This document shows, piece after piece, positions 26,467 to 57,240 of a DNA stretch of 64,000 nucleotides. How positions within the stretch are numbered: position 1 is the first letter of the stretch; every line of letters starts with the position of its first letter. The stretch comes from Antedon mediterranea. Its lineage: Eukaryota > Echinodermata > Crinoidea > Comatulida > Antedonidae. Both the position numbers and the translations under genes were made by a program. The stretch covers positions 12,060,922 through 12,124,921 of the forward strand of contig NC_092678.1 in NCBI RefSeq assembly GCF_964355755.1, in the 5' to 3' direction. The notes under the pieces are model-generated. The model was not told where the DNA came from. It did no database searches and saw only the letters and a list, made by a program, of their open reading frames with translations.

Positions 26467-26875
26467 CGTTAATAATTTTAATTAAGTGTTAATTATATCG
26501 AGTGAATCAAATTTCGGAACTCATAAACAGACACACAACATATGTACTGATAAACAAATATTTATTAGTATTAGAAAATGTTTAATTTGTTAATGTGCAA
26601 TTTTGTGTAAAAACGATTTATAGGATACTGTTCAGAAAAACATGAGTAGGCCTACTCAAATGATTGAATATTTATAATATAAAAAAATTGTTCAACAAAA
26701 AATATGTTACGATAATACAAACTATAAATATAAAACACGTATTGCATAACAAAATATAAATATAATATAGTATATAAAATGTTTTTTGTAAGTACACGTA
26801 CACTTTCTTGGTTAAATTTAATATTAAAAGACAAACGTAATAAAAGATATTGCAGAATACAATAGAGGATGGAAT

Positions 26876-28656: not shown

Positions 28657-28821
28657 TCATGATTTCATCAGGATGATAAGTTTGTAGGAGAGAAGAACAA
28701 TTTGGTGCCACAAAACGGTACCAATACCAAACGCAAAGCACCACAACCACTGGTCTAAGTCAAGTGCTTCACAACCAAAACCATAGTTACTGAATTGGAT
28801 AATTAACAATTGACAAAAAAT
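28657..28821 (-). CDS. ATP2B-like: PMCA-like exon 16: M9/M10 and stop
   Basis: After TTTTCAG it reads IFCQLLIIQFSNYGFGCEAL then DLDQWLWCFAFGIGTVLWHQ (M10), matching PMCA '[36 protein letters not shown]'. A TGA follows KLIILMKS, about 12 residues past M10. PMCA continues for 100 or more residues with a calmodulin-binding helix, which is absent here unless an unseen exon is used. Confidence 0.9.
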   Translation of the reverse strand: MFCQLLIIQFSNYGFGCEALDLDQWLWCFAFGIGTVLWHQIVLLSYKLIILMKS

Positions 28822-31800
28822 CTGAAAAGAAAAGTCAACATTATTTGTAAAAATGCTAAAATTAACAAACAAATCAAGTGACAATTATTCTACTGCAGTT
28901 ATTGTTGCAGCAACTACATTTGTTGGATTGACATTTTTTTGGTATAAATTTATATATTTATGAGGCAGCCAATGCAATAAACAGTGTGTATGGTTACTTA
29001 CTCCATCATGTCATGATTGGTCAAATTACTTGTGGTGCACTTTGGGCCATGGCTTATGTTGAGGCTTCATTTGAGGCTTAGGGAGTGGAGTTGAAAGGGA
29101 GTTACAACCCTGGAACTACTCTAGGTCAGGATTGAACCCTGGAACTACTGTGGGTCAGGATTGAACCCTGGAACTACTGTGGGTCAGGATTGAACCTTGG
29201 AACTACTGTGGGTCAGGATTAAACCCTGGAACTACTGTGGGTTCAGGATTGAACCCTGGAACTACTGTGGGTCACGATTGAACCCTGGAACTACTGTGGG
29301 TCACGATTGAACCCTGGATTTTGGGATAGGAGGCAAGCATGTTAACCACCAAGCTAAGCTCAGTTGACATACAAATAATGATAGGAAAAGAGATTCAGTG
29401 TTGATTGTGATATCATCAATTATTAAATTTACATTTTTAAAACCATACAGCAAGATATCAGACTTAATGATGACCAACAAATATATAACATTTTGATGGC
29501 AGTAAGAAAGAATAGAGTTATATGCATCCTGAATTTGTTTTCCTACGCTCAAAGAGTTATTATAAAAAAAAATTCTCACCTCGCCTACGTATACCAGTGA
29601 TCTCATCTGCAAAAGACCATCATATACCTGCTGCTGACTGTGAACTTTGCGTTCATTCAATTGATTAAAAATTTGCATTAAGATAAAGACATTGAAAACC
29701 ATAGTCATATGTTGAGTAGGAAATGTAGATGGACTTCGTTCTTGGCCATCATCAATGTCAAAGAAGTCGGCACCTAGAAATAGATTCTTATAATTAGAAC
29801 ATTAAAAACATAATACTGTTCTTCAATAATTAAACACCTAGTGATCAGTAGAAGTTTTATGGTGTACATACACATATTTGTTGGTACCTAAACTACTCAG
29901 CTGGTCTACCTGTCAATGAAATACAAACAATACTATTCAATTGTTGTAAATCTATTAATAAATTTATGCTTTTATATACTTTTGAAGAAAAAAAATCATA
30001 ATTACATGCAATGATGTACTGTTTTAGAACATACAGTAGATAGAGACACATGTACAAAATCAAACCATAAATAATTGTAATAATCTGAATTGAATTAATT
30101 ATTAAGAAATGTGTGTAACTACTTTTCTCAATCACAGTGACAACAGTTTTTCAAATGTACATAGTCTTTGTTGTGCAACAGCACAGTTTATTTCATTGAA
30201 ATTGTTAAGTGTTATAAGCATACAAATAAAATATAATTTATGATAAACTAATAAACCGAAAAAAATAAAGAACCAAAGTTTGAGTACCGTGAAGGCTAAT
30301 TCATGTAAAAAAAAGAAAAATTATAATGGGAGTCTTACCTTTATATATGAAGACAAGAATGACAGCTAATTGGTAAATAAAATGAGAAATAGTTGTAACA
30401 ACAAACAAAGGTGAAACTATGTGATTATCTGAACCAGCAGCTTTGTATTTCAAGATGTGACGTGTTGGTTTATCAGCCAATAAGATGATAGATACATTAA
30501 CTAATAAATATGACCACAATACTTGGATGGCTCTGATTGGGCTATTCTACAAAAACAAATTTTAAAAAAATATTTAAAATTTCTTATTTATTATACAGTA
30601 AAGCATAAAAGATATATTAACCACCTAAAACATATAATTAAAAATATTGAGTTTGTAATATATAGTATACAACAATATTGGGTCAGGTGGCTACGAGTGG
30701 TTACACAAGGGGTTCCGCAATGATTTTTCTGGAGGTATAACAAGTTTTAAGGCAACCTGAAGTAGATAATACTTTAACAGTAAAGACATTCACATTAGAA
30801 TTGCATACCAACAGAAGAATTCAAATGGTGAATGAAGCAATGGTGTATGAACATTATTAATTAAACAGTACAGTATAAATTAAACAGTACAAAATTAAAC
30901 AGTACAGTATAAATTAAACAGTACAGTATAAATTAAACAGTACAGTATTAATTAAACAGTACAGTATAAATTAAACAGTACAGTATTAATTAAACAGTAC
31001 AGTATTAATTAAACAGTACAGTATTAATTAAACAGTACAGTATTAATTAAACAGTACAGTATTAATTAAACAGTACACTCTACACACTGACTTTGTCGTG
31101 AGCGGTTGTGTTTACTCGGACCTCTCTCTAGGCCTCAAAAGTACTCTGGCAGTCTAGGCTATACCGGGGCAAACAGAATTTTTAACCACTTCGCATTGGT
31201 GGCTCAGGGGCACTCCCTAAGCCTAAGTAAAACAACGAAACCAATTGGTGGATTAATGGCCTTTTAATTGCGGTTTACTCTTCGCATCGTAGTACTTCAA
31301 CTACACAACGAAGCCATTTGGTGGATTATCAACGCTTTGTTAGTCTACGGTATCAGCAAGGTAAGCGTATTGACTTCTCACACCTGAAACCAGGAAAAAA
31401 TGTACACAACCAAAGATTAACATTTTCCGACGAAGCCTTTTGGTGGATAACTTTTCTGTTATCTTATCGGATGAATCGTTTTTTGATGTTTCTATTTTCA
31501 CTTTTAACATTAACTGTATCGGTATTTTATATACCATTGGGTTGCTGAATTCTTGGAATTCCATTTGATTGAATTGTGGATACGCTTACAATTGTATTTT
31601 GTAACGTGGACGGATACAGACGTGCTCAACGCGAGCTATTTTTCGAGCGACGCGATATTTTTGCTGGACAGATACGGCATACAGGTAACCTTCCAATATG
31701 ACTTTTAAGTTTTAGTATGGCTTCCTTTATTATCCATGCATCAGTGCTTGTTCTTTTGATTAACAATGTGAAACATTTTCAACTTGTTGACCAATTTTTT

Positions 31801-34800: not shown

Positions 34801-37800
34801 TAATTTTAGAATCCCAACTATCAAGCCAATGGCACATGTGACCTTTTTTTACAATGCTATTAAAGAATGGAATAATTTACCAATTAACATTAAGGAATCA
34901 CAAACTGATTGTTGTTTTAAAAGTAAAGTTAAAAAGTATCTACAGGAACGTTCACTAGCTCTAGAAACTATTTAATTAGCGCTTCTTCTTTTTTCGATTG
35001 TCCTTTTTTGCTGTTTTTTGTAATTTTTATATGTTGCATTGTTTGTCTTTTTTGCTGTTCTTTCAAAGGACCTCATTGGAAACAAGTCCGTAGAGGACTT
35101 TTATGAGTTATCCTTGGCATCCTTGTTTTATTTTGGTATTTTTATATTTGCCAATTTTAATTGTATGTCTGTGATATTTTATGTACTGATGCCGAAATAA
35201 ATCAAATCAAATCAATCAAATATTAATTAAACAGTACAGTATTAATTAAACAGAATAGTATTAATTAAACAGTACAGTATTAATTAACAGTACAGTATTA
35301 ATCAAACAGTACAGTATTAATTAAACAGTGGGTGAGACCATTTCAAGTCGGTGAGACCATATCGACTAATTAGATGGTTTTTATCAATCTTTGATCATCA
35401 CACTATTATCTCAGGAAATCGGAAATAAACTATATAAATATAACCCTCACAGTGCGCTGACAATGGTTGCAAAAGTAAAAACACTAAATATCTCAACAAG
35501 TCTATAATCAAAAGAATACAAAAATCTACTTACTGAAAAAGTACAAGCTCCAATAAAGGCAACAAGTGATGTTATCATACCCCTGACTAACAGAGATTGC
35601 ACGAACTTGACAACACCATCCCAGATATTGCGCCCCCACATGATGGCCTGTCGAATACTATAAATACTATCATCTTTTAATATGACGTCTGCAGCCGTTT
35701 TAGCTTCTACAGAACCAATATTTCCCTAAACAAAAACAAACAATTTCAAAATGAGTAGAGAATTTACTATATAACTATCGTGACATACAAAATTGTTAAA
35801 TCAGTAATTAAAATGCTTAAAATCACGTAAATCCGATGAAAATGTCTAGAAAAATTAATTCTTATTTCATAAAAAAAGAAATGAGGTGGGCTTACAAGAG
35901 CAATGCCTAAATCAGCTTCTGCTAGGGTATCCTCGTCCCCTATGTAGCGTCCAGTGACTGCAACTAGTTGCGGTTGAAGATTCTTTGGAGCTGCAGATAT
36001 GCCTTTAGCAAGTACTTGTTTGTCGTCTGGATGGGCCCCACCTAGTACACCTAGCGATGGCCATGTCTTGTGAAATTCATCATCTTTAATCTAAATAATA
36101 ATTAATAATAACAATCACAATTTATTTTTTAAATCTATCATCTAATATCCTTTTCCAATCTGCCTAAAGTATTACAACTTTTAACAAGTTGTAACCAGGT
36201 TTGCTCTCCTGATTTATTAAACGTCTTCATACATACATACATACAGTAAAAAATATCTGGAGAAAAGCGTAGTTGCACGCTATTTGATTATGATTGGTCA
36301 ATTATAATACTATAGCATTACACATGCACTCAGGGCAACAACTTGGGACATCTTAGAACAAAACACAGGCATCTCATCTTCGCACTATGTAAACCTGGTT
36401 TAATACAAGTTTTTACAAGTTGAATTTTGCAGGTGTGAAAAGGGTATAAGAAATGAAACCTTTTATAATCTATGCAATTGCTTACCAATTGAGATTCATC
36501 CCCATACATAATAGATGAAGCAGATGGTGAAGTCTGGAAATAAAACATGAGAAACTTTAAATAAATAGGGCACACATACTCTACATACTATACAAAACAA
36601 AATATTCTGAATACCTCACAAACAAACAACGCAACTCAATGTTTTTTTGCTATGTTGATGAGGAGGAGGTACTAAAAGTTATTGAATCTCTCGATTCAAA
36701 CAAAGCCTCCGGATTTGATGACATTTCAGCTAAAGTTGTAAAGGAAGTAAAATACAATATTTTAAAGCCGCTGACATATATTTTTAATTTATCACTTCAA
36801 ACTGGACTAATACCAGGGAAGTTGAAAATTTCCAAAGTAGTTCCCATACATAAAAAAGGGGACCGCCATTTGGCCTCAAACTATCGTCCCATATCGCTGT
36901 TGCCCATTTTTTCGAAAGTTTTTGAAAAGATTATCCATAATCAATTATACAATTATCTTACAAAATGTAAAGTGTTAAGCAACAATCAATATGGATTTAG
37001 AAACAAACACTCAACTTCTCATGCTATGATCGACTTGGTCCATAAAATATTAAATGCATTTGAAAAAAAGGAATATGCACTTACTACCTTTATGGATTTG
37101 TCAAAAGCGTTTGACATTATCGATCACAGTATTCTGTTGAGCAAATTGGCGCATTATGGTATAAGAGGCATCGTTTTAATGTGGTTTAGAAACTATTTAA
37201 GTGGCCGCAAACAATATGTTTATGCCAACGGTAGATCATCATGTTTAAAAGACACCAATATAGGGGTGCCACAGGGTTCTGTTTTAGGACCACTTTTGTT
37301 TTTAATTTACATCAATGATATAAGTCGAGCAAGTAGTAAAATAGATATAATTAGTTTTGCTGACGACACAACTTGTATAACAAGGGGAGATGACCCTACA
37401 ATGTTAAACCATACTATGAATATTGAACTAGAAAAAATAAACGTATGGCTTAAAGCAAATAAGCTGTTACTGAATGTCAGCAAAACTAATTACGTTGTTT
37501 TTAGAACTAGCCAAAAGAACTTTGACAAAAACCAGTTTAAAATAAAAATGAATAATGTGTTATTACATAGAAAAGAAAATGTGACATTTCTAGGTGTAAT
37601 GTTAAACGAAAATCTTAACTGGAAACATCACATACATACAGCTTATTAGGAAAAAAATGTCTAGGGCAATTGGTATACTTTTAAAAGTAAGAGAATTCTT
37701 TCCTCATAAAGTCCGTATTAGTCTTTATAACACCTTAGTATTACCTCACCTTCAGTATGGTAACTTAATATGGGGAAATACATACAAGAGCACGTTAGAA

Positions 37801-40800
37801 GTAATACTAAAACTCCAAAAGAGAGCTGTAAAATGCATTACCTTCTCTAAATCCAGACAAGCCTCAGAGCCACTGTTTAAGAAACTAAAAATATTAAACG
37901 TTTATGATATTTACAAAGTAAACGTCATAGGATTTATGGCAAACGTAAAATTCAATGAATTACCACATCACATTTTAAATATTTTTAATTACTGTGACAG
38001 TATTAGGCCTACTCATAACCTCAGAACAGAAACTGAATTCGAAATTCCCTTCACAAGACTAACTTGCAGTCAACAGTTTATACACATATATGGACCAAAA
38101 TTGTGGAAAGAATTCACTTGTAATGGTGGTAATAAACCGGTTATCTTAAAGAAACAAAATAAATGTATAAAAAAACAGGTTAAAAAATACTTTTTATCAC
38201 TATATGCTGATTAACAACACCTTTGTTTATTTAAGTTCTATATACTTGTTCTTATGTAAAAGGGTCCTACAAAAAAACGAAGCTATAGCTTTTTTATGCA
38301 GGATCCCTGTTCTCAGTTGTACTGTAATTATGATGTACTGTAATTGATGACTAAATAAATGTGGAATAAAGTAAAGTAAATTTAAGAAGAGTTTTCTAAG
38401 AGCAGACACTATAGAAGACTATAGATCCGGAAATCTCTAGAAAACTCAGATTGGATCTAAAAAACTTGGATATATCTGAGTTTTCTAGACACCCATGATG
38501 CCAAACATCCAACAAAGTCACATTCACACTACATTCAAGAGTAATTACCTTCAGTCTATCTCTCACACCTTTAACAAAGTCACACTCCCACACCTTTAAC
38601 AAAGTCACATTCACACTACATTCAAAAATTAAAATTTACCATTTCAATTCCACGGATTTTATGATTAAATACTTCAGAATCCAGGCAGAGATCTTTGGGA
38701 CTGCGGATGATTCCAGACTCTGCAGCTACAGCGCCTGCTGTCTGGAGGTCATCTCCTGTTACCATGGTAATCTTGATTCCACTACGCTGTAAATCCTTAA
38801 CATACTTAGCAGCCTTAAAAAAAATTAAAATATATTTAAAAAAGGTAAAGTATTATATTTTCCCCTTGATTTAAATGTCACATAATAAAATTTAAAAAAA
38901 AGGCTGACTTTATTTAATCTATATGTTTCATGTTTTTGGGGACCCTACACCAATATACATTTACTATACTTACTTCTTTAAAGCAAGAATTATTTTATCA
39001 GGGATATTATTTTACTAATGAATGGGAATATATTTCACTAAATGGGCAAGACAATTAATGCTTGCAAAAAAGGTTAGATGTGCTAGATATTAGATTTGAA
39101 AGATTTTTTGCAAGGAGATTAGGAGAAAAACAATTTTTGTTACCAAGTCTGTCTGTCACCACAATGTTAAAATCACTAGCCTTCAAATAATATACAGTAT
39201 TGTTTACATACTGTATGTCTTCCAATACCGGATCCTATGAAAACTGGAAACTTTACCAAACCCTGACTTTTCATGAGGTCCAAAAGATCCAATATTTTTT
39301 TAGCATTTAAAAAATGCTTAAGAATACTAGAGTTTCTGGCAAACTTGATTAAGCCAGACAGTATATGCACATTGTATTTTGTAATGAAGTTCTTTTATAA
39401 CATAATAGGCAACTGTGCTATTTTATTTAGGATATAATGTTGTTTTTCCTACCTTTGGACGAACACGATCTGAAATCCCTAACAAAGCAACGCAAGTCAG
39501 CTTTGATAAGACATCATCCTCACGAGACAAATCCACGCTGTCTTCTGTCTGATCGATGGCCATATCTCGATATGCTAAACATATCGTGCGAAGCTTCGAT
39601 TTAGACATCTCTGTTATTTGCGATGCAAAGTGTGATTGAGTATCAGTGTCCAGAGGGCAGGCTACACCATCTGTGTCCAGGTAAAATGAGCACCTTTTAA
39701 GATAATAAAATATTAATTACATAGTTATATCTGTATAGTAAAATCTAATTTTTAAACCAATTTAACAGTTATTCTAAATTTACATATTTTGATTTGATTT
39801 GGACAACATTTATTTAAGCAATAGATAATAACAATTTAATAACTTTTACTGTAGTAATGTATGTTTGTTTCTATGTATACATCTGAGGCAGTCAATGAAT
39901 AGTTACTTTTTTTTACTTGGAATGATTACTCAAACAAATCTCGATACTGTTAATAATCAGATAAACAAAATGTATTTCCTGCAGTAACTGCAGTAGATTA
40001 ATTTTTACATGGTCCCTCCATATACATAAAAAGCTGCAAACCTTTTAAGTACTCGCTCCGCTGCTCCTTTGCAATAAACTCTGTTTCTGTTCAATTCTTC
40101 CTTACCAATCACACAACACATCATCTTCCTACTTGTGTTAAAAGGATATACACGCATCACCTTCTCCTCTGGATTCGAATCCCGCAATGCTCTATAATGC
40201 CCACCAAGGATCTCCACAAGCTCCAGCAGAGCGCAGTCTATTCTGTCTCCAATATGTTGAAGTATACCATGATTCTCGACAGATATCTAGTTTGTGAATA
40301 AAGAAGAATATGATCAACGTTTAATGGTTCAACCAGCTTCTGTGATGCTAATATACTACTAACACTCGCGGAAAATACAGTAAAAATTCATTAATGAATT
40401 AACTTAAGTTAAAATGTTTTGAGAAACATTTATTTAAATCTGCACAAACATAAGCTATTTTTTATAGTGCGATAAATACAGTAAATAAGTCATAAATTGT
40501 AAAGCCCTTCTTTCAACAGCTTATAAAGTAAAACCTTAATTAAGGACTATCTCATTCAGGGAACACCCTAGAGGGACACTTAAATGTGAAATGAGGGGAA
40601 TATACTTAAAATTATCCGTCCATATTAACCCTTTCACTGCGTATACCCGGTACTACCGGGTATAAACAGACGTCGTGAAATACGTATACCCGGTAATACC
40701 GGGTATGGGCAAAACAATGATTTAATCGTATTTGCCTATAATATATAGCACCCTCTGTATTTTTTCGATGAACTTGGATATTTTTGCAAGTCATTAAAAA

Positions 40801-43800
40801 TTTTTTCCAGCAAAAAAAATGGCCCTCTATAGTTGTATTATTGTCTTGAAAAAATGCGCCCTCTATAGTTATATTATATATAGTATAGTATATAATAGTA
40901 TTTCTATCTTGGAAAGATGTGTTGAGTAGCGTAATGGCGGCCATTTTGAAAGTAACACAAATTTACCAGCTCCAATAGGGCAACATGGTGTTTATCACAA
41001 CACGCAAAAAAAAAAATTCTGAAAAAATAGTTAGTTTTTGTACTATAGGGAATTTTTCGAAAATGTCAATATTTTCACGATTTTGCCCCAAAACTTTGAT
41101 TTGTGCATAATTTTTATAAAACAATAAAAATAATTCAATTTGTTTAAATATTTTTATTTGTTATACGTATCTTCGTCAATATCCAGTTCGAAAAACGTAT
41201 TCCATAAGAATTTCTTATAGAAAATATAGTTTTTATCATTGATTTGATAAAAAACACGAAATCCAAAATACCTGTAATGACGTCACATGACGTCATCAAT
41301 ATGCAAATTACTTTTTTTTTAATACCTAACTGTAGACTAACCCTTTGCCCATCACACACCACAAAAATAATTACACAATTATCTCAATTAGTATTTTTTT
41401 GCAATTAATTAAAATATAATATGTTTTACGCACAGAGGTGGGAATAACGCTTCGCAGTGAAAGGGTTAAACGGACACATTAAAATAGGAATTCTACTGTA
41501 GTGTATTCAACTAAAAAAAACATCTTATGAAAAGACATACATTTTATTTTATAATTAAAAATAGATATATTTACTTCTATAATTTGAGCTGTGTAATCTG
41601 TATTCACTGCCATTCCTTCCAGAAGTAAATTGGTCACTTCTGAAGAATGCGTCATTGATTTCAATCTTGTGTTAAGATTAGTTTGTTTATCCGGCCAGCG
41701 AACATGAAACAACTCATTAAATAAAAAGATTCCCTCAACACGCATGTAGTTTTCAGTGACCACTCCCGTTTTGTTTGTTAAAAGTGTGGTAATATTACCC
41801 ATAATTCCATAGGCTTCATTGTTACGGACAAATATTTGATCATGTCGAATCTCCTATATAATTAAAAATTATTTTTTTAAATAATAAAAAAAAATTTGTT
41901 AATATATTATATCACAGTACTGTGTAATAATTATTGTAGCATGATGTATAATCAAATAAATTGCACCTAGATATGAACAATTACAACACAAATTAATATA
42001 AACAAGAAAACACAATTGTTTCAAAATGCTTGGTAAATTATATATGTATGCATGTGGCAGGTCGTTTTATTCAAAGAAAAAATAAACGTCCCTGGGAGTT
42101 TATTCAAGGGGGCGTTTATTCAAAACGGGTGTGCAGTACTATGGGATCATTTATTCCAAGGTGGTGTGTATTCAAAGCGGGGTGTTTATTTGAATAAATA
42201 CGGTAAATATGATAACAAAAACAAATCTTACATGAGCTGACTGTTTGCAGATGTGCTGGTAGATGGAAGGTAAAGATGATGGGTAGGTGATTGTAAACAC
42301 AGTGATGGTGACAATGATCAGGTCTACTATATCCTTCAGGTATGTAATATCCCAGCTCTCATCATCAGCAATGAATGTTTGGTAGCAATAGTTAATAATC
42401 AGAACCAGACCAATAATTGTACACAGGGCAATAGCTGGCAATTACAAATCAATAATTGTATTAAATTAAATTAGAAATGTTTTCCGACTTATCTGCATAA
42501 ATTATTACAACTTTGATCTCCCTACTTAGTACATTTTCTTACACGCATAGGCGAACTGTGAGAAATCTCGGGAGAAAGCATAGTTGTGAGCTATTTGATT
42601 GGTCAGTTTAACACCAGGGCAATACAAGCGTGCATTAACAACTCGGAACAAAATACAGGTCTCTCATCAGGAACTTAAGAATAATTGAAAAAACAGCATT
42701 TGCCAGTTGTTCTTGGGTGGCATTCAAATTTATGGACTTTAATCCTTAAAACCTGTGTGCTTGATGGCTAGGGATAGATTCAAATTTGTCTCATTTTTTT
42801 GAGAAGAATTTTAAAATTTGATTAAAAAAAATGTTGGAATACAAAATAACTATAAATAAACCATGCTCATCACATTTGTTTGGTAAAATAAAAAATTCCA
42901 ACAAAATGTTCTGACAAATATTCAGTATTAATGATTGTGATTACCTGCTATTAACACATAGTTTGAGATGATTTCCAAATCTTGCGTCAGGACACTTTTT
43001 TTCTCCTTCTTGTTCCTAAGCCGTTGGCTACCAAGTGGTGAGTACACAGGAGGTGATGATTGTGTTGCAACCTCACTAGTGTTACCAGGCATATTTACAT
43101 AAATATCATTGGCTGATCTTGCAATGTCTAAGAAAGTTATGAAAAATAATATAAATTCTTTTTGTATTTAATCCCTCCATTTGAAGAGCATGGGTTATTG
43201 TCGGTTTATCCAGGTAAGTTAGGCACGACATAGACTGAATGTTCTTATATGTTGGTAGTAGACATTGGGAAGAGAAAACAAAGAGAACAACTATCTTTTG
43301 ATAATCTCAATTAATTTATTCTCTTCCTGATTTAACATAATGTAGAAATCTGATATTTCCTCTTTTGGTTTATTTACTCAATGATGATAAAATTATGACG
43401 ATGATAACACATTTAAAAATTAATAATGATATTTTAAAAACGACACTTAAATCTATCAAATGGCATGTGAATGTTTAGATTTTATGGTTTAAATTAAAAC
43501 TGGTCCTAAAGTTTTAATATTCTTAATTAATACATGCAATTATAATTCTTAACATAATTGATTCTCATAATCAGCTTCATGTCTTTGTATTTTATAATAT
43601 GGCACCTAAAGCTTGGCTTCCAATACAAGGATATAGGCCCACCATTAGTAATTTGACCAATCATGATACGATGGATCTTCCAAAATCTCGCTTATGATTG
43701 GACAACACACCTGCATTGCGTCTACGCCGTTGCATTGTATAGTGGGAACCAAGCTTTACATTATAAATGCCAATCGATTTTCTTCCAAATGAAATCTCTA

Positions 43801-46800
43801 TATAATAAATAGTATTTTATGATATGCATGCATTATTAACATCACAGGTATTTGTGTGTATGTTCACTAACTGTATTCATAAACAGATGGTCTCTCATTT
43901 TGGTTAATAAATAATTAATTTTATAAACAAAGCCAACCACCTCAATCACCTTTAATTTAATAATTGAAAACACATGCAAAAAAATAAATTACAATATAAT
44001 ATTGTATGAAATCATTCAATATTTAAATGAGAATAGTGACTACCTACTGCACAACAATTAAAGTTAAATTCTTTTTATAATAACAAAAATATGAATATTG
44101 AAAAACAAATTGTAAAATTATTCATATCATAATCAAGAACTATAGAATTAAAAAGAAATGATAATAGTCTTATAACAAAATGCTCAAACAAAATTTGTGC
44201 AAATATGAATTAAACAAAAATAAACATATTAATGACACCAACTACTGTATAGTGTGTATAACACTTTGTAAATTTAAGTAATCTATAAATAAAAGGCAAA
44301 CACAAAAAGTGTCCACTATGCACTCCGCTGTGTGACATCCGATCCGTCTGAATTTGGCACCAAATATCTTGCTATGGAGATGGAACGAAAAGTTTGAAAA
44401 CCAAATATTTAATGAATTATGTCTAAAAATAATTTTCAAAATCAAATGTGGAATTTCCAGAGGCCGTCATTCAATACCGTTCAGAGAGATGAGTCGATAG
44501 CTTATAAGGCACAATTTTCAAGTCAAAGAAAAGTGGTAGATTAAATTTTAATTCACTTCCATTTGTATTAATAAACATTTATAGGATGATTTATGTAGTC
44601 TTTATAAATAAATGTTATATTATATTTCTAAATTTGAAGTGTATATTTATTTGTTTTCTTTCTCCATTTTAATCTTAATGTGTGTAAATGTTGTTATGAC
44701 ACATTCAGGAGCACTCAGCTCAGCAGATACGTGATGGAAATGAAAATTGCACCTATTCATTCTAGTAGTGGAAAACATTGGATTTGTGTGACTAATTTGT
44801 ATAGTGAAAAATAGGCTTTAGTCTGGATAAAGTAATTGATAATCTGGTGTCATTAATATATAAGTTAATAAACGTGCATGTATGATCTTACCCCCTGAGT
44901 CAGGTGCATCAGAAGAGCGTGCAAATTGATAATTAGGAGTAAAAGCACCATTAATGACTCCTCCTTGCGGAGTCTTACCAAGCTTAGTGTGGACACCAAC
45001 TTGCAGTACCACCATTCGTGCATGTCCATCAATTATTTTTGATCCTACAAAGATAAAGATGTTTATTGTATCCCTTTGACACTGCCAATTGATGTCAGAC
45101 AGGGAAAGTATAGTAATACCATAAATCTTCAAATTATTCTTTGATTGTTTTTTAGGGTGGGTTACTATTAGAAAGGCGTTACTATTAGAGTAGTGGGTTA
45201 CTATTACTAATCGTAAATTAGGCACTTGAAAATAGTAACCCACCCCAACTATTCGGGTCAGCAAATCATAGCAAAATAATAAAACAGTACGAATAAACAA
45301 ATTTGTTTGAACTCTAACTTTATTTTAAAAACTCAAAAACACTCAATCCTCCCCCACTCCCGAGATCAACATGCATTATCTCCTTATTTTCAAAATATGG
45401 CTGCATCATAAACGACCAGTCTTCATAATGTCATTTTGTCAATAGTTTTTGTGACTCTAATAATATCCCCATGGGTTACTATTATAGTAGTGGGTTATTA
45501 TTATAGATTGACTTATAAGATGGTGGGTGGGTTACTATTAGAAGGTGGGTTACTATTAGAAGGTGGGTTACTATTAGAAGGTGGTTTACTATTAGAAGGT
45601 GGGTTACTATTAGAAGGTGGTTTACTATTAGAAGGTGGGTTACTATTAGAAGGTGGTTTACTATTAGAAGATGGGTTACTATTAGAAGGTGGGTTACTAT
45701 TAGAAGGTGGGTTACTATTAGAAGGTGGGTTACTATTAGAAGGTGGGTTACTATTAGAAGGTGGGTTACTATTAGAAGGTGGGTTACTATTAGAAGGTGG
45801 GTTACTATTAGAAGGTGGGTTACTATTAGAAGGTGGTTTACTATTAGAAGGGGGTTACTATTGTGTGTATGTTACTATTAGAAGATTTAGGGTAACATGG
45901 GTTGCTTTCTTGAATACAGTGTTCAGAATTAGCATACTTGTTCTATTTGAATGGTAAGCATTCAGTATGTACTACTAAAGCCAACCTTCCACTAAGCCAA
46001 TCTGAAACCATCAGGTTAATATGCGTGCATGAATACAGATTTGGAAGATAGAAACATGGATATGCATGCTCTTCGATATGCACGAACACATTTTCCTAGT
46101 GGAAAATCGGCTTTAATGTACATACCTAACACTAAACAGTAAATAATGTACATACAATACAGTACACAATGTAGTACATAACAGTAAATAATGTACATAC
46201 AGTACAGTACACAATGTAGTACATAACAGAAAATAATGTACATACAGTACAGTACACAATGTAGTACATAACAGTAAATAATGTACATACAGTACAGTAC
46301 ACAATGTAGTACATAACAGTAAATAATGTACATACAATACAGTACACAATGTAGTACATAACAGTAAATAATGTACATACAGTACAGTACACAATGTAGT
46401 ACATAACAGTAAATAATGTACATACAATACAGTACACAATGTAGTACATAACAGAAAATAATGTACATACAGTACAGTACACAATGTAGTACAAAACAGT
46501 AAATAATGTACATACAATACAGTACACAATGTAGTACATAACAGTAAATAATGTACATACAATACAGTACACAATGTAGTACATAACAGAAAATAATGTA
46601 CATACAATACAGTACACAATGTAGTACATAACAGTAAATAATGTACATACAATACAGTACACAATGTAGTACATAACAGTAAATAATGTACATACAATAC
46701 AGTACACAATGTAGTACATAACAGAAAATAATGTACATACAATACAGTACACAATGTAGTACATAACAGAAAATAATGTACATACAGTACAGTACACAAT

Positions 46801-49800
46801 GTAGTACATAACAGTAAATAATGTACATACAATACAGTACACAATGTAGTACATAACAGTAAATAATGTACATACAATACAGTACACAATGTAGTACAAA
46901 ACAGAACATTCTCAAATCAAATGCACCCAATATTGTAAGTCTTATGTGCAATGTATGCACATCGGTTTTGTGTCTCACTAAACATGTTTATTTATCTGAA
47001 GCTCAGAGAGGACAGTTTAACTCAAGTACAAAATCTTTAAATCATTAGAAGTGCTTCACTACATCAATTAACATACAATGTCAATGGTTTAAATAATAAT
47101 GTAGAAATAGATGAAATTTAAAATGAACATTGAATGACTGTTCGTAATAAGATTTCCCATGTGAATAAAAAATGTTAAACATAAAAATACAGAGAAATGA
47201 AATTGTACACCCTGAAATGTTTACTTTAAATAAATACCAAAATGTTTAAAAATTACCCAATTTTCATGCTAAATGTCATGTTTACAGTATTATAGAAATA
47301 TCCCACAACACACGTTGAGTCACATGCAGACATTTTGGCCAATAAGCAATAAGTATACATACATTTACTGATATTGAGTTGAAGCTTATTGGCCGAAACA
47401 AATTCTTGTCAATGTCATTTTTAGTAAAGAAAAAAAGTATTGAGTTTAATGAACTGTATTAAAAAGAAGTAAAAATACAAATACTGCAATCATATGTTAA
47501 TTTCTTTTCAAAATAAACGATGATATTAATGATGCTAACCTTTGTAGCAATAATTAGTTAAAGATGTATTGTCCTCCAAAAACATGAAAAAATGAAAGAT
47601 TAATAAAATCAGATTTTAGATTTTGTAGTTTCACCAAAGTAAATCAGGAAAAAATAATGTTTTCACTTATAAAATGACAAAATAAATTGTTAAATTTAAC
47701 CAAAACCAATTAGCTGGCAGCCAATTTGACAATTTTTTGCTTTAAATTAGTTTTTTTCACTTAAGTAAATATTTTGTTTTTGGGGTCCATTTTTTGGTTG
47801 AAGTGAATAACTATTATGTGACATTAAAGTGGCAAATAAAAAAAAAAAATCCAAACAAACATTTTTTCAGGGGGACAATATCACAAAATGTTAAAATAGT
47901 TGCGCTGGTAGTCTGGGGTTACTTTTAAGATTAAACATAAATATTAATGATATACCTTTGAGTAAGATAGCATCTCCATCTGCTGATTTGTCAACCACGG
48001 AATCACGTCTTGTCACACGGTATTCATTCACTTTTACGTTACTACTATAGATAATTAGTCCATCAGCTGGAACTGTACTCCCTGAAAACAACAGTTTGTA
48101 TTTAGTCAGCCTGACTAAGTTCAATTTTCAACAATTGTTAACTACAAGTTCCAGTCTCTAAACAATGCAGTCATTTTCTTTAAAGCTTAAACATTGAATA
48201 AGCATAAACAGTTTTTAATTCTTAATCACTCCCCACCCTCCTCAAATTCTGAGGGAAAAAATATATTTTAACAAACTCTTCAATATTATAGTAAAACGTC
48301 TACCGCTTGGCCAGTCCGTGTGTGGGGTACGTTTTACTATTACCCCTTTCACACCAAAAGCAAAACTCCGGAGACACCCCGGATTTGACGTCCCGCTGTT
48401 TGGTGTGAAAGATAAAATCAAGCAACTCCGGAGTTTAAAACTGCGGGGTTGAACAGCTGAACATTCTCCGGAGAGCGAACTGCGGGGACACCCCGGTGTT
48501 TTGGTGTGAAAGGTACCAACATCAAACTCCGGAGTGTTTCGGGTCAAAAGGTCATCCTCACACGATCACTCATTGCTTTAGTTTTATTTCAAAATACTTT
48601 AAATATTTGTACAAAATATATAGCGGGTTTAAAAAATAATTAGTAGTATCAATAAAACATTATATTACTTCTGAGACTTTTGAAAGTAATTATTAAATTA
48701 AAAATATTGTTAATTAAAATTATTCTAATGATCGTCGCTATGTAAACAAACAAAATAGAGGGCGACATTTACAATTTTATTTTATAAACCCCGGTGTTGC
48801 TAGGTTGGTGTGAAAGGGGTATCTCCGGAGTTTCTCGACGTTTTGAATGGTCATAAACCCCGGGGTGTCTCCGGAGACACTCCGGGGTTTTGGTGTGAAA
48901 GGGGTATTTGTTCGCGGTTTGCATATATTCTATGCTACAATTTATCCTTTGGATTTTTGAAGTTATATTTAGATCATGTACAAAAATTGTATTCATTAGT
49001 GACCACTTTAGGAAATTTACCGCAAGATTTCTGTATGCCTAAAATGCTCTAAAACGCCAGAAAGTTCGGGGCCATCAGCCCCTAGACCGCTGGTGCTGCC
49101 ATGGGTTTAAATATGTTCTAATTCAAACTTCTTCAGCTACCAGAGGAGCATAATATTTTCCAATACCGAATACAACCCGATACTTGAGCATCATCATACC
49201 TACTGGGCTAAACTCACACACAAGGCATTGGTACATTTTTAAGCAAGGTGGGACTATACTTATCATACAGTAATATTGTTTACAATTTATTTGTGTAAAT
49301 TTAATGCATTCATAGTAGTAGTACATACCACATTTAACATAAATAATATCACCAACAACAATCTCGTCTCTTGGCTGATACGCTCCAGCGCTTCCACGTA
49401 TAGTGTAAACCTGCGCCATTGAAAATAGTTTGCGCTTCCTTTGGGTTATGGCATACTGTTCTTCAAGAAAATAATTGCTGACAACTTGAAACATAAAGAT
49501 GAAGATGGCGAGTAAGCATAAACAAATTGCTCCGACCCAGCCAGCCCTCTTGCGTTCTTCCAATTCTAAATACAAGGAAACTGTAAAGTAAAATGTATTT
49601 GATTATTAAAGGATTTCATAATCCTACATCAGGATAATAGTTTGGAATAGTTGTACATTCATTTTGAGGTACTATACTGTATTTTTTTAAAAGGTTTTCC
49701 ACAAGCCCCTTAAGCACTTTGGTAGCTCGATATGTGTATTATTACTGTAGCTCTGGTTTGTTAAAAATATATCCCTTTATCAACATTACTTTGAGGTGTA

Positions 49801-50535
49801 ATATACAACATTCGAGATCCTCTGAAATAATCATATTTTTTCGCACGGACTAGTAAATACAGATTCTGAGAGAAAAATAAAATGTAATACCATCAAGGAT
49901 GCATTCAGAACCAAAAAAAAGAATATGCAGTACTGTACCTGTATATATTTGTTAAATAAATACATTTTTTTAAAATCATAAGTGAGAAATTTAATTTCAA
50001 ATCCATATCCATATTCAATTTGCTGTATTTTTCATTTTAATGCTAATGCACTTTTACACTTTTAAGGCTATCTTAGGGTTTACAGTAGGTTAAGCTTCTG
50101 TGAACATGACCCTGATCCTAAGGATAATCATTATCAGTAGGTGCAGAAGTACATTATTGCCAATCCACTTTGCATCTCATTCTCAGACACCATTCCAGTC
50201 CCCACATTTTAATTGAGGATCTTGCTGTGAATATTCTTTTTTTAATATTTATATGATTATTCACTTATTGTAGATTTTTTAAAAAGGTATAAAGTTTTAA
50301 ATTATAGTTTGTTAATTATACTTACATTTAATGACATCACTTTCAGCAAAAGACAAACCAAAAGAGACAACCGCAAGGACCATAATCAACACGAGACGCA
50401 ACTCCTTTAGCAGCTGTGACTTGATGATATTCCATAAGCTGCCATGGACACCCGCTTCCTCTACCTCATACAGGGAGTTATTCCCATATAGTTCTTGACG
50501 TTTCAACACTTCTTCTTCTACAAGATGGCTAATTC
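28657..50535 (-). CDS. ATP2B-like: PMCA (ATP2B)-like P-type ATPase homologue lacking all main catalytic and Ca2+-binding residues; 16 exons, N-terminus not found
   Basis: Sixteen minus-strand exons, each bounded by AG...GT with matching phase, join into about 1,021 codons with no stop. The order follows PMCA: A domain, M1-M4, P and N domains, M5-M10. PMCA signatures are KKEKKSVL before M3, VYPFNTSRK and VYCKGAAERVL in the N domain, MVTGDD, WGRN after the hinge, FNQLNERKVH after M8 and LDQWLWC at M10. PMCA normally exports Ca2+ at the plasma membrane. Here TGES is TRRD, DKTGT is [14 protein letters not shown] is TGRYIGDED, PEGLP is PSSLP and the M6 Asn/Asp are Tyr/Asn. Pumping is therefore unlikely; a regulatory or scaffold role is inference. 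The protein stops soon after M10, so the usual calmodulin-binding tail is missing. The start exon upstream of 50535 was not identified. Confidence 0.88.
28985..29366 (-). mobile_element. tRNA-derived SINE with amplified B-box module
   Basis: On the minus strand the 5' end reads TTAGCTTGGTGGTTAACATG (A-box-like), then GGGTTCAATC (B-box). A 29-bp unit containing CCAGGGTTCAATC and GACCCACAGTAGTT is then repeated about seven times (29105-29325), followed by a body with ATTTGACCAATCATGACATG. A Pol III promoter head followed by an unrelated body is the plan of a SINE. It lies in the last intron of the PMCA-like gene, in the same orientation. Confidence 0.6.
29105..29325. repeat. 29-bp minisatellite, about 7-8 copies
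   Basis: The plus-strand unit contains GGATTGAACCCTGGAACTAC followed by TGTGGGTCA, with single-base variants. Each unit includes one complement of the Pol III B-box. It is part of the SINE described above. Confidence 0.95.
29580..29773 (-). CDS. ATP2B-like: PMCA-like exon 15: M8 and loop
   Basis: It reads FDIDDGQERSPSTFPTQHMT then MVFNVFILMQIFNQLNERKV and VYDGLL. PMCA has '[49 protein letters not shown]'. Acceptor TTTCTAG, donor GAG|GTGAGA; phase fits both neighbours. Confidence 0.92.
30339..30546 (-). CDS. ATP2B-like: PMCA-like exon 14: M6 and M7, Ca2+ ligands lost
   Basis: It reads NSPIRAIQVLWSYLLVNVSI, aligned with PMCA 'DSPLKAVQMLWVNLIMDTLA'. The M6 Asn is Tyr (30508-30510) and the M6 Asp is Asn (30496-30498). 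ADKPTRHIL corresponds to 'ATEPPTESLL', and ISHFIYQLAVILVFIY is M7. Acceptor TTTGTAG, donor G|GTAAGA. Confidence 0.92.
30848..31078. repeat. 19-bp minisatellite, left arm
   Basis: Units of TATTAATTAAACAGTACAG and the variant TATAAATTAAACAGTACAG repeat to 31078, where the LINE starts. The same array resumes at 35219. Confidence 0.95.
31717..33144 (+). pseudogene. LINE ORF, 5' part: 2A-like motif and apurinic endonuclease domain
   Basis: There are 475 codons before a premature stop. A hydrophobic N-terminus (MASFIIHASVLVLLI) is followed near residues 100-111 by KCGDISPNPGPG, which resembles the 2A-like ribosome-skipping motif (D-x-E-x-N-P-G-P) with Ser for Glu. The endonuclease domain then shows FIHLNVRSILPKM, SICETMLD, VGSIYRPPSQ, VLGDFNINL and GISDHSLTF, all in the expected order for target-nicking APE-type endonucleases. 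The frame breaks at about 33130-33142 by a one-base gain in an A/G-rich run; the reverse transcriptase continues in the next frame. Apart from this shift the ORF is well kept, so the insertion is probably young. Confidence 0.85.
33143..34975 (+). pseudogene. LINE ORF, 3' part: reverse transcriptase
   Basis: About 600 codons are open from the shift to a TAA at 34975. RT blocks are visible in order: [71 protein letters not shown] and the active site LYADDCAIF (near 34120), then the thumb region KTECILFGSK and YLGIEID. The catalytic YADD is intact. No RNase H domain is seen, as in many CR1/L2-type elements. Upstream joining codons (NKNNPNKLWKCLKDLGYK) lie before the first Met, which confirms that this is a continuation and not a separate gene. 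Confidence 0.88.
35219..35330. repeat. 19-bp minisatellite, right arm
   Basis: TATTAATTAAACAGTACAG units resume immediately after the LINE tail, with one AGAATAG variant and one shortened unit. Confidence 0.95.
35534..35725 (-). CDS. ATP2B-like: PMCA-like exon 13: M5 region
   Basis: It reads GNIGSVEAKTAADVILKDDS, then IRQAIMWGRNIWDGVVKFVQ and M5 SLLVRGMITSLVAFIGAC. PMCA has 'GTDVAKEASDIILTDDNF', 'AVMWGRNVYDSISKFLQ' and 'FQLTVNVVAVIVAFTGAC'. Acceptor TTGTTTAG, donor TCA|GTAAGT. The next intron hosts the nearly complete LINE. Confidence 0.92.
35896..36090 (-). CDS. ATP2B-like: PMCA-like exon 12: degenerate hinge (TGRYIGDED)
   Basis: It reads FHKTWPSLGVLGGAHPDDKQ and VLAKGI, equivalent to PMCA '[26 protein letters not shown]', then LVAVTGRYIGDEDTLAEADL where PMCA has '[20 protein letters not shown]'. 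The hinge codons lie at 35923-35955. The first Asp, the Asn and the Pro of GDGxNDxP are gone; the second Asp remains. Acceptor TATTTAG, donor CTT|GTAAGC. Confidence 0.92.
36182..36428. repeat. Small inverted-repeat element, putative MITE
   Basis: Left AACAAGTTGTAACCAGGTTT and right AAACCTGGTTTAATACAAG are roughly inverted. The interior phrases AAAGCGTAGTTG and TATTTGATTATGATTGGTCA recur in diverged form at about 42565-42670. Both are intronic in the PMCA-like gene. Ends are approximate. Confidence 0.4.
36486..36533 (-). CDS. ATP2B-like: PMCA-like exon 11: 16-codon phase-0 cassette
   Basis: A 48-bp open segment (TSPSASSIMYGDESQL) lies between a good acceptor TTTCCAG and a donor TTG|GTAAGC. 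Both ends are phase 0, so it can be included or skipped without a shift. It sits in the variable P-domain loop where PMCA has 'EIEQE'. Less certain than its neighbours because of its size. Confidence 0.6.
36590..38380 (+). mobile_element. 5'-truncated jockey/CR1-like LINE
   Basis: The element begins within the reverse transcriptase (about YSEYLTNKQRNSMFFCYVDE) and runs to a 3' tail AATAAAGTAAAGTAAA near 38380. It lies antisense in the intron between PMCA-like exons 10 and 11. It is a different family from the LINE at 31 kb: the active site is FADDT and the tail differs. Confidence 0.85.
36639..38214 (+). pseudogene. LINE reverse transcriptase, one frameshift
   Basis: The first 336 codons hold [73 protein letters not shown] and ISFADDTTCI (intact FADD). 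The frame stops after HIHTAY at 37649. The next frame continues at once (LIRKKMSRAIGILLKV) to 38214 with the C-terminal ...YGNLIWGNTYKS... and ...YGPKLWKEF... blocks. A single one-base change near 37645 accounts for the break. No endonuclease remains, so the copy was dead on arrival. Confidence 0.88.
38640..38813 (-). CDS. ATP2B-like: PMCA-like exon 10: P-domain MVTGD block
   Basis: It reads AAKYVKDLQRSGIKITMVTG then DDLQTAGAVAAESGII, matching PMCA '[33 protein letters not shown]'; TGDN is TGDD. It ends VFNHKIRGIEM, aligned with 'FNRRIRNEKGE'. Acceptor TTTTAAG, donor ATG|GTAAAT. A LINE occupies the next intron. Confidence 0.9.
39453..39693 (-). CDS. ATP2B-like: PMCA-like exon 9: N-domain to P-domain return
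   Basis: It reads FASQITEMSKSKLRTICLAY and LSKLTCVALLGISDRVRPK, equivalent to PMCA 'xxxxIxxMAxxxLRTICxAYRD' and 'LTCIxVVGIEDPVRPEV'. The conserved Asp of DPVRP is kept, but the Pro after it is Arg. Acceptor TTAAAAG, donor AAG|GTAGGA. Confidence 0.9.
40042..40286 (-). CDS. ATP2B-like: PMCA-like exon 8: nucleotide-binding domain
   Basis: It carries DCALLELVEILGGHYRALRD, then PEEKVMRVYPFNTSRKMMC and VYCKGAAERVLK. The Phe of the VYxFNSxRK motif and the Lys of KGA, both used for ATP binding in P-type ATPases, are kept. The donor AG|GTTTGC is weak but phase fits the next exon. Confidence 0.9.
40629..41465. mobile_element. Non-autonomous piggyBac-type element with TTAA duplication
   Basis: The ends CCCTTTCACTGCG and CGCAGTGAAAGGG are perfect inverted repeats flanked by TTAA on both sides (40625-40628 and 41466-41469), the hallmark of piggyBac insertions. 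Near the left end two sub-terminal palindromes, TACCCGGTACTACCGGGTA and ACCCGGTAATACCGGGTA, follow. There is no transposase. The 837-bp element sits in the intron between PMCA-like exons 7 and 8. Confidence 0.9.
41575..41853 (-). CDS. ATP2B-like: PMCA-like exon 7: P-domain start with DKTGT changed to NKTGV
   Basis: It reads FVRNNEAYGIMGNITTLLTN then KTGVVTENYMRVEG, where PMCA has '[22 protein letters not shown]'. The catalytic Asp codon is AAC (Asn) at 41773-41775 and the following Thr is Val. The remainder (LLLEGMAVNTDYTAQI) matches the PMCA 'LxxGIAVNxAYTSKI' block. Acceptor TATATAG, donor GAA|GTAAAT. Confidence 0.92.
42050..42210. repeat. Short TTTATTCAA-rich repeat
   Basis: TTTATTCAA/GTTTATTC motifs recur at short spacing and end in TTTATTTGAATAAATACGG, a small palindrome. 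It is probably a fragment of a DNA transposon; ends undefined. Confidence 0.35.
42232..42434 (-). CDS. ATP2B-like: PMCA-like exon 6: M3-M4 with PEGLP replaced by PSSLP
   Basis: M3 reads IALCTIIGLVLIINYC. M4 reads DLIIVTITVFTITYPSSLPS, where PMCA has '[20 protein letters not shown]'. The PSSLP codons are at 42268-42282, so the M4 Glu that coordinates Ca2+ is lost while both prolines are kept. Acceptor TTGCCAG, donor CAT|GTAAGA. Confidence 0.9.
42945..43127 (-). CDS. ATP2B-like: PMCA-like exon 5: linker and start of M3
   Basis: A polar linker carries RLRNKKEKKSVLTQDLEII, equivalent to PMCA 'xHKKEKSVLQGKLxxLA', then SNYVLIA entering M3. Acceptor TTTCTTAG, donor G|GTAATC. PMCA also has its variable, lipid-binding and spliced linker here. 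Confidence 0.88.
43607..43758. repeat. MITE-like repeat with TAAAGCTTGGTTCCCA-type inverted ends
   Basis: The left CTAAAGCTTGGCTTCC and right GGGAACCAAGCTTTA are inverted repeats. The interior ATTTGACCAATCATGATACG is shared with the SINE body at about 29005 and, diverged, with 27744. Intronic, between PMCA-like exons 4 and 5. Confidence 0.65.
44892..45044 (-). CDS. ATP2B-like: PMCA-like exon 4: end of A domain
   Basis: It reads GSKIIDGHARMVVLQVGVHT, where PMCA has '[22 protein letters not shown]', then a divergent Ser/Pro/Gly-rich linker ending APDSG. Acceptor TTTGTAG, donor G|GTAAGA; phase conserved. Confidence 0.88.
45155..45248. repeat. Small inverted repeat ending in AGGGTGGGTTACTATTA
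   Basis: AGGGTGGGTTACTATTAG at the left and AATAGTAACCCACCCC at the right form a roughly 90-bp hairpin. The same terminal motif is the unit of the 18-bp array 280 bp further on. Confidence 0.7.
45526..45862. repeat. 18-bp minisatellite, about 18 copies
   Basis: The unit GAAGGTGGGTTACTATTA repeats with an 18-bp period and occasional GGTGGTT or GATGGGTT variants. Because 18 is a multiple of 3, a 173-codon frame (GGLLLE repeated) stays open across it; I regard that as an artefact. Confidence 0.95.
46132..46906. repeat. 45-bp minisatellite, about 17 copies
   Basis: The unit contains GTACATACAATACAGTACAC, then AATGTAGTACATAACAG and TAAATAAT, with a 45-bp period (for example 46148 and 46193). Variants alternate CAATAC/CAGTAC and AGTAAA/AGAAAA. 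It is intronic, between PMCA-like exons 3 and 4. Three minus-strand frames stay open for 255-320 codons only because the period is divisible by three. Confidence 0.97.
47553..47889 (-). mobile_element. MITE-like repeat, copy 3 (inverted)
   Basis: The ends AAAGATGTATTGTCCTCC and GGGGGACAATATC are inverted repeats. On the minus strand the interior contains GTCACATAATAGTTATTCAC and ACCAAAAAATGG, shared with 23905-24030. Intronic, between PMCA-like exons 3 and 4. Confidence 0.6.
47956..48081 (-). CDS. ATP2B-like: PMCA-like exon 3: A domain with TGES replaced by TRRD
   Basis: After TTTTCAG it reads STVPADGLIIYSSNVKVNEY, aligned with PMCA 'DLLPADGILIQGNDLKIDES', then RVTRRDSVVDKS where PMCA has SLTGESDHVKKS. 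The codons for TRRD are at 48002-48013. The Glu that drives dephosphorylation in P-type ATPases is absent. Donor G|GTATAT. Confidence 0.9.
48340..48907. mobile_element. Inverted-repeat element built from CTCCGGAG palindromes, TA duplication
   Basis: The ends CCCCTTTCACACCAAAA and TTTTGGTGTGAAAGGGG are inverted, flanked by TA (48338-48339 and 48908-48909). Both terminal ~150-bp regions contain repeated CTCCGGAG and CACCCCGG motifs and further internal copies of TTGGTGTGAAAG. The centre is AT-rich. There is no transposase. The superfamily is not recognised; TA duplication fits Tc1/mariner-like or Harbinger-like insertion. Confidence 0.75.
49329..49580 (-). CDS. ATP2B-like: PMCA-like exon 2: M2 and first part of A domain
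   Basis: The acceptor TTTACAG and donor G|GTATGT bound an 84-codon exon. It holds GWVGAICLCLLAIFIFMF (M2), then QRKRKLFSMAQVYTIRG, matching the PMCA 'xxFTVIRGG' block, then EIVVGDIIYVKCG, equivalent to 'DITVGDIAQVKYG'. Phase matches both neighbours. Confidence 0.9.
50326..50535 (-). CDS. ATP2B-like: PMCA-like exon 1 (first found): N-terminal region and M1
   Basis: The acceptor CTTATAG precedes GA-ATT and the donor is T|GTAAGT. It reads ISHLVEEEVLKRQELYGNN, where PMCA has GLSxxxxDLExRRxxFGxN, then NIIKSQLLKELRLVLIMVLA into M1. It begins with two bases of a split codon, so at least one further 5' exon must exist. Confidence 0.85.
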
Positions 50536-56275: not shown

Positions 56276-56444
56276 CATAAAAGTGAAATTAAATAAACAA
56301 AACAAACTGTTTTTATGACTTTGTGGTTAGCTGATTTCCTTGCTTGGCCTATCCCTGATCATAATATTTTATTTGATAACATTTTTCTTTACAAATTAAT
56401 AATGTGACTAATTTGTTTTAATGGTTTTATACAATAAATGACAC

Positions 56445-57240
56445 CTCTAGTTTGGGCTACAGTAGCAAACAGCAATACCATCGTATGACACCTCTAGTTT
56501 GGGCTACAGTAGCAAACAGCAATACCATCGTATGACACCTCTAGTTTGGGCTACAGTAGCAAACAGCAATACCATCGTATGACACCTCTAGTTTGGGCTA
56601 CAGTAGCAAACAGAAATACCATCGTATGACACCTCTAGTTTGGGCTACAGTAGCAAACAGCAATACCATCGTATGACACCTCTAGTTTGGGCTACAGTAG
56701 CAAACAGAAATACCATCGTATGACACCTCTAGTTTGGGCTGTAGCAAACAGCAATACCATCGTACGACACCTCTAGTTTGGGCTACAGTAGCAAACAGCA
56801 ATACCATCGTACGACACCTCTAGTTTGGGCTACAGTAGCAAACAGCAATACCATCGTACGACACCTCTAGTTTGGGCTACAGTAGCAAACAGCAATACCA
56901 TCGTATGACACCTCTAGTTTGGGCTACAGTAGCAAACAGCAATACCATCGTATGACACCTCTAGTTTGGGCTGTAGCAAACAGCAATACCATCGTATGAC
57001 ACCTCTAGTTTGGGTTACAGTAGCAAACAGCAATACCATCGTATGACACCTCTAGTTTGGGCTACAGTACCAAACAGCAATACCATCGTATGACACCTCT
57101 AGTTTGGGCTGTAGCAAACAGCAATACCATCGTATGACACCTCTAGTTTGGGCTACAGTAGCAAACAGAAATACCATCGTACGACACCTCTAGTTTGGGC
57201 TGTAGCAAACAGCAATACCATCGTATGACACCTCTAGTTT
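56445..57240. repeat. 48-bp minisatellite, left arm, about 17 copies
   Basis: The unit contains ACACCTCTAGTTTGGGCTAC, AGTAGCAAACAGCAATACC and ATCGTATG with a 48-bp period (TGACAC at 56485 and 56533). A 45-bp variant lacks ACA in GGGCTACAGTAGC, and CAG[C/A]AAT and GTA[T/C]G variants are mixed. The array is interrupted at 57240 by the 6.3-kb element and resumes at 63511. Confidence 0.97.

Follow-up and report, generated by a model that had tools for sequence, protein, structure and literature searches.

A gene on the minus strand of a 64,000-nucleotide window from the crinoid Antedon mediterranea (assembly GCF_964355755.1, contig NC_092678.1, positions 12,060,922 to 12,124,921) appears to encode a pseudo-pump, a protein derived from a plasma membrane Ca2+-ATPase (PMCA) that has lost the residues of the pumping cycle and seems to have been kept by purifying selection after that loss in at least two comatulid families. 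P-type ATPases are named after the Asp that they phosphorylate; in this gene the DKTGT motif around it reads NKTGV, GTT on the plus strand at 41773-41775 being the minus-strand codon AAC (Asn), in MGNITTLLTNKTGVVTEN, just as the original prediction had read it. We put the probability that the gene is a PMCA-derived pseudo-pump whose altered state is conserved at roughly 85%. Judged from sequence, it is a pseudoenzyme: catalytic residues have been lost in an otherwise conserved homologue, and the gene has been kept by selection since.

Within the window the gene runs from 50535 to a stop at 28657 in 16 open exons, separated by introns that are all GT-AG, with matching exon phases; GC content by codon position is 0.496/0.351/0.364 in the coding sequence, against 0.316 in the introns. 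Exon D can end at either of two donors. The distal one (44892) gives an in-window coding sequence of 1,021 codons with no internal stop, where about 66 would be expected by chance at its base composition; the proximal one (44979) gives 992 codons, also without a stop. The 992-codon translation is identical from residue 60 to the end to P0001, an NCBI record from A. mediterranea named 'plasma membrane calcium-transporting ATPase 3-like isoform X2' and the closest protein among the matches listed in a search of a protein database of 5.8 billion. The 29 codons added by the distal donor are used neither in P0001 nor in the Anneissia japonica record P0002. The gene also begins outside the window: 4.3-4.5 kb past the right end, at L009:4497-4321 on the minus strand, is exon 1, which encodes 59 residues and has the donor G|GTAAAT. 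The clean 16-exon frame of 1,021 codons first proposed therefore stands in its exons, its phases and its freedom from stops, and needs correction in the 29 codons and in the first exon that it lacked.

That the altered state has been kept is indicated by A. japonica, which belongs to the Comatulidae, Antedon belonging to the Antedonidae. Its orthologue, P0002, also reads NKTGV rather than the intact DKTG that the original prediction had named as evidence against itself, and it has most of the other catalytic losses in common with Antedon. Because an independent species carries this Asn as well, the codon cannot be an assembly error, another objection that the original prediction had named; with the same residue also present in a second gene of the Antedon genome, an assembly or annotation artefact is refuted. 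Two protein searches with the pseudo-pump, which scored 7987 and 7993 candidates, returned only P0001 and P0002 as close matches, followed by a gap (best 120 of 236 and 120 of 162 matches); beyond it, among the matches listed in the first search, identity was at most 36%, except for P0113-P0115 (38% over 37% of the query). A motif scan of 356 retrieved proteins found DKTGT in 351, NKTGV in P0001 and P0002 only and EKTGT in P0011, with two proteins not matching the pattern. P0011, a PMCA2-like protein of Mizuhopecten yessoensis represented by a protein record only, is otherwise PMCA-like, and its Glu may be genuine or an error of the record.

The two orthologues are 74.0% identical, against 88.8% for the active PMCAs of the same species; on this measure the pseudo-pump is less constrained than the active PMCA, yet clearly constrained. 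The crinoid pair retains 135 of the 259 columns that are invariant in at least 20 of 21 PMCAs, and only 8 are altered in one species alone; both have changed in 116, to the same new residue in 98 and to different ones in 18. Between the two species the best conserved segments are the A domain (97/114), the NKTGV segment (36/40), M5-M6 (54/59) and M8 with the M8-M9 loop (22/24). When the 1,021-codon sequence was evolved neutrally in two lineages to 74.6% identity (150 runs of a Hasegawa-Kishino-Yano-like model without indels), a mean of 9.8 and 10.0 stops arose per lineage, the sum over both was never below 11, and the first lineage stayed open in none of the runs. The shared new residues and the failure of neutral lineages to stay open argue that the gene is maintained and not decaying, in support of the predicted maintenance: the frame is open where neutral evolution leaves about ten stops per lineage. 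A relic that has lost pumping and is still decaying, its frame open only for lack of time, would suit the looser constraint and the absence of a C-terminal tail; yet the loss is older than the split of the two families, the lost state is conserved (98/116), no first lineage survived neutral evolution, and splice sites and phases are intact, so that we consider such a relic very improbable. The decay of neighbouring transposon genes, with which the open frame had originally been compared, is visible in the list of open reading frames only.

The losses extend well beyond the phosphorylated residue. Two sets of 21 PMCAs served for comparison, the first with two non-PMCA alignment rows left out and the second including the crinoids' own active pumps; the phosphorylated Asp is present in 20/21 of the first (the other being Glu, in P0011) and 21/21 of the second, and is Asn in the pseudo-pumps of both species and in the second Antedon gene (gene 2). 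The roles of TGES, whose Glu serves dephosphorylation, and of TGD, KGA and GDGxND are common to the P-type family. Antedon and Anneissia have both also replaced the Glu of TGES, the Glu of M4, the Asn of M6, two residues of GDGxND (its first Asp and its Asn), and the Asn of the phosphatidylinositol 4,5-bisphosphate (PIP2) latch. The TGES Glu position holds Arg in Antedon, Leu in Anneissia and, as aligned, Thr in gene 2. At the Ca2+ ligands E412/N869/D873, numbered as in section 7 of PMC12488499, the residues are S/Y/N in Antedon, S/Y/D in Anneissia and R/Y/N in gene 2, the M6 Asp thus being Asn in Antedon and still Asp in Anneissia; the meaning that we attach to these and to the PIP2 residues follows the relevant sections of that paper. 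The Gly of TGES and Gln837 are likewise altered in Antedon and retained in Anneissia. At an E-value threshold of 0.001, the calmodulin-binding tail (PF12424) had no match in P0001, P0002 or gene 2; it is present in the active Antedon PMCA, P0250. The pseudo-pump keeps Lys758, the Lys of KGA, the TGD hinge and the final Asp of TND; in the N domain it keeps Phe, Lys and Arg, and the Glu there has become Asp. One could imagine transport continuing through another phosphoacceptor or an unusual cycle, for which the retained hinge, the two Lys residues, the last Asp of TND and the M6 Asp of Anneissia would be useful; we give this next to no credence, since neither species has kept the phosphorylated Asp, the Glu of TGES or of M4, the Asn of M6, or the Asp or Asn of GDGxN and, in the portions of PMC13322241 covered, the Asp-to-Asn change alone stops other pumps.

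The same genome bears on the origin of the pseudo-pump. P0250, which reads DKTGT, is encoded about 10.4 Mb from the pseudo-pump on the contig that the two share (C9:22.527-22.562 Mb), and all 15/15 introns in the shared region of its gene have equal-phase counterparts in the pseudo-pump (positions compared by eye, and no more than approximate in the A-M3 linker and M9), which indicates duplication at the DNA level. Genome searches with P0001 and P0250 found at least three PMCA-type loci, a lower bound because such searches score the best candidates only; all are on C9, one an intact PMCA and two reading NKTGV, and further matches on C3, C4, C5 and C8 resemble, on informal typing, other P-type families. 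In a tree that included the window's gene (gene 1) without gene 2, the pseudo-pumps separate from every PMCA, those of plants and fungi among them; the branch between is saturated at about 9.6 changes per column (the midpoint root divides it into 7.5 + 2.05), compared with 0.38 for the stem of the active crinoid PMCAs; the tip branches measure 0.30 and 0.14, against 0.07 and 0.06 for the active pumps. This looks like a burst of change followed by constraint. The separation from all PMCAs could be caused by long-branch effects; an approximately unbiased test did not reject a grouping of the pseudo-pumps with the crinoid PMCAs (p 0.077), and gave p 0.0445 for a grouping with all echinoderm PMCAs.

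Gene 2 (C9:16319084-16337005, L037-L039) reads SNKTGV and likewise lacks the TGES, M4, M6 and GDGxND residues. As modelled from a predicted start, it comprises 16 exons, open over 1,056 codons, in which 14/15 junctions follow the GT-AG rule and have the same phases as in the active gene; the exon 5/6 junction in the linker (16326223/16327678) lacks a proper splice site, and spliced alignment guided by P0250 produced a frameshift there, whereas the one guided by P0001 produced none but contained odd small exons. When a single lineage was evolved neutrally from the gene 1 coding sequence to 33.5% identity, none of 60 runs ended with fewer than 33 stops. Both Antedon pseudo-pumps have NKTGV, TGR and the M6 Tyr, and they group together with a Shimodaira-Hasegawa-like approximate likelihood ratio support of 99, albeit in a quick tree and on two long branches. 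Where both deviate at a PMCA-invariant column, gene 2 shares its residue with Antedon gene 1 in 42/169 (0.25) and with Anneissia in 37/169 (0.22); since ten other proteins compared with each gene gave 0.07 to 0.38 (17/20 values between 0.11 and 0.24), the excess is only modest. A single origin of gene 1 and gene 2 is likely.

Profiles and a predicted structure show how much of a PMCA is left. Among named families TIGR01517 fits both pseudo-pump genes best, with 408.4 bits for P0001, 420.6 for P0002 and 476.4 for gene 2, as against 1086.3 for P0250; none of the three reaches the curated equivalog cut-off of 507.05 bits, and the pseudo-pumps are therefore not classed as PMCA pumps. The N domain (PF13246) scores 61.7 and 63.7 bits in the crinoid orthologues and 61.2 in the active pump, and retains 26/36 strongly conserved columns, a count reached in 23/1050 circular shifts. 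The surfaces that hold neuroplastin in PMCA2, namely the M7-M8 loop, the M8-M9 loop and M10 according to section 6 of PMC12488499, retain 14/18 columns, with 69/1050 shifts equal or higher. The predicted model (predicted local distance difference test 76.4, predicted template modelling score 0.75) has PMCA2 as its best match and comprises the A, P and N domains and, in our reading of its helix list, ten membrane helices. An E1-locked shape was considered and rejected: the control model of an active PMCA is equally E1-like, so that this feature is uninformative.

We posit that an intron-containing PMCA gene was duplicated and that the copy changed very fast on the stem branch. Gone from it are the phosphorylated Asp, the Glu that serves dephosphorylation, two to three Ca2+ ligands, the calmodulin tail and the first Asp of GDGxND; since then purifying selection would have kept it in at least two comatulid families. 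By analogy with published work on other pumps, the Asp-to-Asn change would block phosphoenzyme formation and thereby the pumping cycle, leaving a non-pumping membrane protein whose N domain could still bind nucleotide and whose M7-M8, M8-M9 and M10 surfaces could still dock partners. The altered protein probably has a job other than pumping; our tentative suggestion, somewhat short of an even bet, is a nucleotide-binding scaffold or a competitor or regulator of the active PMCA. More speculatively, at least two Antedon genes may form a distinct crinoid subfamily of PMCA-derived pseudo-pumps, stemming from one Asp-to-Asn event fixed before the comatulid families split and now serving as nucleotide-binding scaffold or regulator of the single active PMCA.

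Several observations weigh against this picture. Conservation rests on two species, and P0001 and P0002 are predicted records of a kind, protein records, that cannot reveal stops. Between the two crinoids the N domain is one of the less conserved segments (126/193); in gene 2 its profile score falls to 51.3 bits and one of its Lys residues is aligned to Arg. Retention of the docking surfaces is not significant alone, and segments of low conservation in PMCA can look retained. The remodelled M4-M6 core (PSSLP, Tyr876, an M4 without its acidic ligand) raises another prospect, that of a passive conduit, gated channel or lipid-handling protein without ATP hydrolysis. M5-M6 is among the best conserved segments despite its departure from the PMCA pattern, the M4 break is present in the predicted model (helices 368-387 and 392-408 in our own reading of the helix list), and the P-type-like TMEM94 holds lipid in a gorge formed by M3/M4/M5/M7 (PMC12134183); however, conservation of M5-M6 also fits a purely structural role and gene 2 has a different M4 (PRNQV), and we regard such a protein as rather unlikely.

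The features of the locus are collected in Table 1. According to the list of open reading frames, introns of the pseudo-pump contain two pairs of reverse-transcriptase frames on the plus strand (31702-34975 and 36561-38214), each split over two frames, which we take to be long interspersed nuclear element (LINE)-like. Intron 1 holds, on the minus strand at 53360-53080, an intronless stretch of broken frame, presumably ribosomal protein P1-like and, judged by eye, probably a processed pseudogene. The 38-base tandem array lies beyond the gene's stop and the other four in its introns, two of them in intron 1; the last two arrays have a similar repeat unit.

Table 1. Coding exons, altered codons and large tandem arrays in the window (residues in P0001 numbering)
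Feature	Position	Strand	Remarks
Exon A (coding exon 2)	50326..50535	-	N-terminal part up to M1
Exon B	49329..49580	-	M2 and beginning of A domain
Exon C	47956..48081	-	A domain; TGES position is TRRD (48013-48005 = T R R)
Exon D, short form as in NCBI protein	44979..45044	-	Distal in-frame donor 44892 adds 29 codons
Exon E	42945..43127	-	A-M3 linker and beginning of M3
Exon F	42232..42434	-	M3-M4; PEGLP to PSSLP; Ca2+-site Glu (mouse PMCA2 E412) to Ser390, 42277-42279
Exon G	41575..41853	-	P-domain core including NKTGV, beginning of N domain
Phospho-Asp codon	41773..41775	-	AAC, Asn432 replacing the phosphorylated Asp of DKTGT
Val436 of NKTGV	41761-41763	-	
Exon H	40042..40286	-	N domain; KGA motif kept (Lys571, 40068-40070)
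Exon I	39453..39693	-	End of N domain
Exon J	38640..38813	-	P domain; MVTGD kept
Exon K	36486..36533	-	48 nt, without counterpart in active PMCA gene; similar insertion in Anneissia protein
Exon L	35896..36090	-	P domain; TGDGTNDGP to TGRYIGDED (first Asp is Arg782, 35947-35949)
Exon M	35534..35725	-	P-domain end, M5; PIP2-latch Asn (PMCA2 N841) to Gly848, 35579-35581
Exon N	30339..30546	-	M6-M7; Ca2+-site Asn (PMCA2 N869) to Tyr876, 30508-30510; Asp (D873) to Asn880
Exon O	29580..29773	-	M7-M8 outer loop, M8, M8-M9 inner loop
Exon P	28657..28821	-	M9-M10, then stop; calmodulin-binding tail (PF12424) not found
Large tandem repeat arrays	25405-26469, 45526-45884, 46135-46904, 56438-57240, 63511-64000		Periods 38, 18, 45, 47 and at least 91 bases, respectively

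Set beside known systems, the crinoid gene resembles PMCA (P2B; TIGR01517; P0250 in Antedon) in its best profile family, exon phases, predicted ten-helix A/P/N fold and N-domain score, and differs in lacking the phosphorylated Asp, the TGES and M4 Glu, the M6 Asn, the GDGxN residues, the PIP2-latch Asn and the calmodulin tail. The nearest published case of a P-type-like protein with altered motifs, among the literature covered, is TMEM94/ERMA, likewise a membrane protein that lacks TGES and whose catalytic motifs are altered, according to the parts of PMC12134183 and PMC13322241 covered; it retains the Asp (DKQGI) and has GSSANL (PMC13322241, same parts), whereas the crinoid protein has NKTGV and GRYIGD and is PMCA-derived. 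As far as these two sources were covered, one study found a nucleotide analogue bound and detected no ATPase activity, and whether TMEM94/ERMA is a pump is disputed between them. The Caenorhabditis elegans P-type protein CATP-1 has likewise been proposed to act independently of pumping, but it retains the Asp (D409), the source describes it as a Na+/K+ pump, and its pump independence is contested (PMC11631496, relevant passages). The listed literature on pseudo-pumps, inactive P-type proteins and echinoderm PMCA, a body outside which most subscription journals fall, contains no PMCA pseudo-pump, and the passages covered of the P-type ATPase review PMC10654040 contain no pseudo-pump.

Automatic names such as 'plasma membrane calcium-transporting ATPase 3-like' hide cases of this kind and should be taken as a warning. 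If our reading is true, the pump fold would have a use of its own, without the phosphorylated Asp and most catalytic and ion-binding residues, across two animal families. Crinoids would then provide a natural test of the non-pumping roles debated for P-type proteins such as CATP-1 and TMEM94, because pumping is not expected there as a hidden cause.
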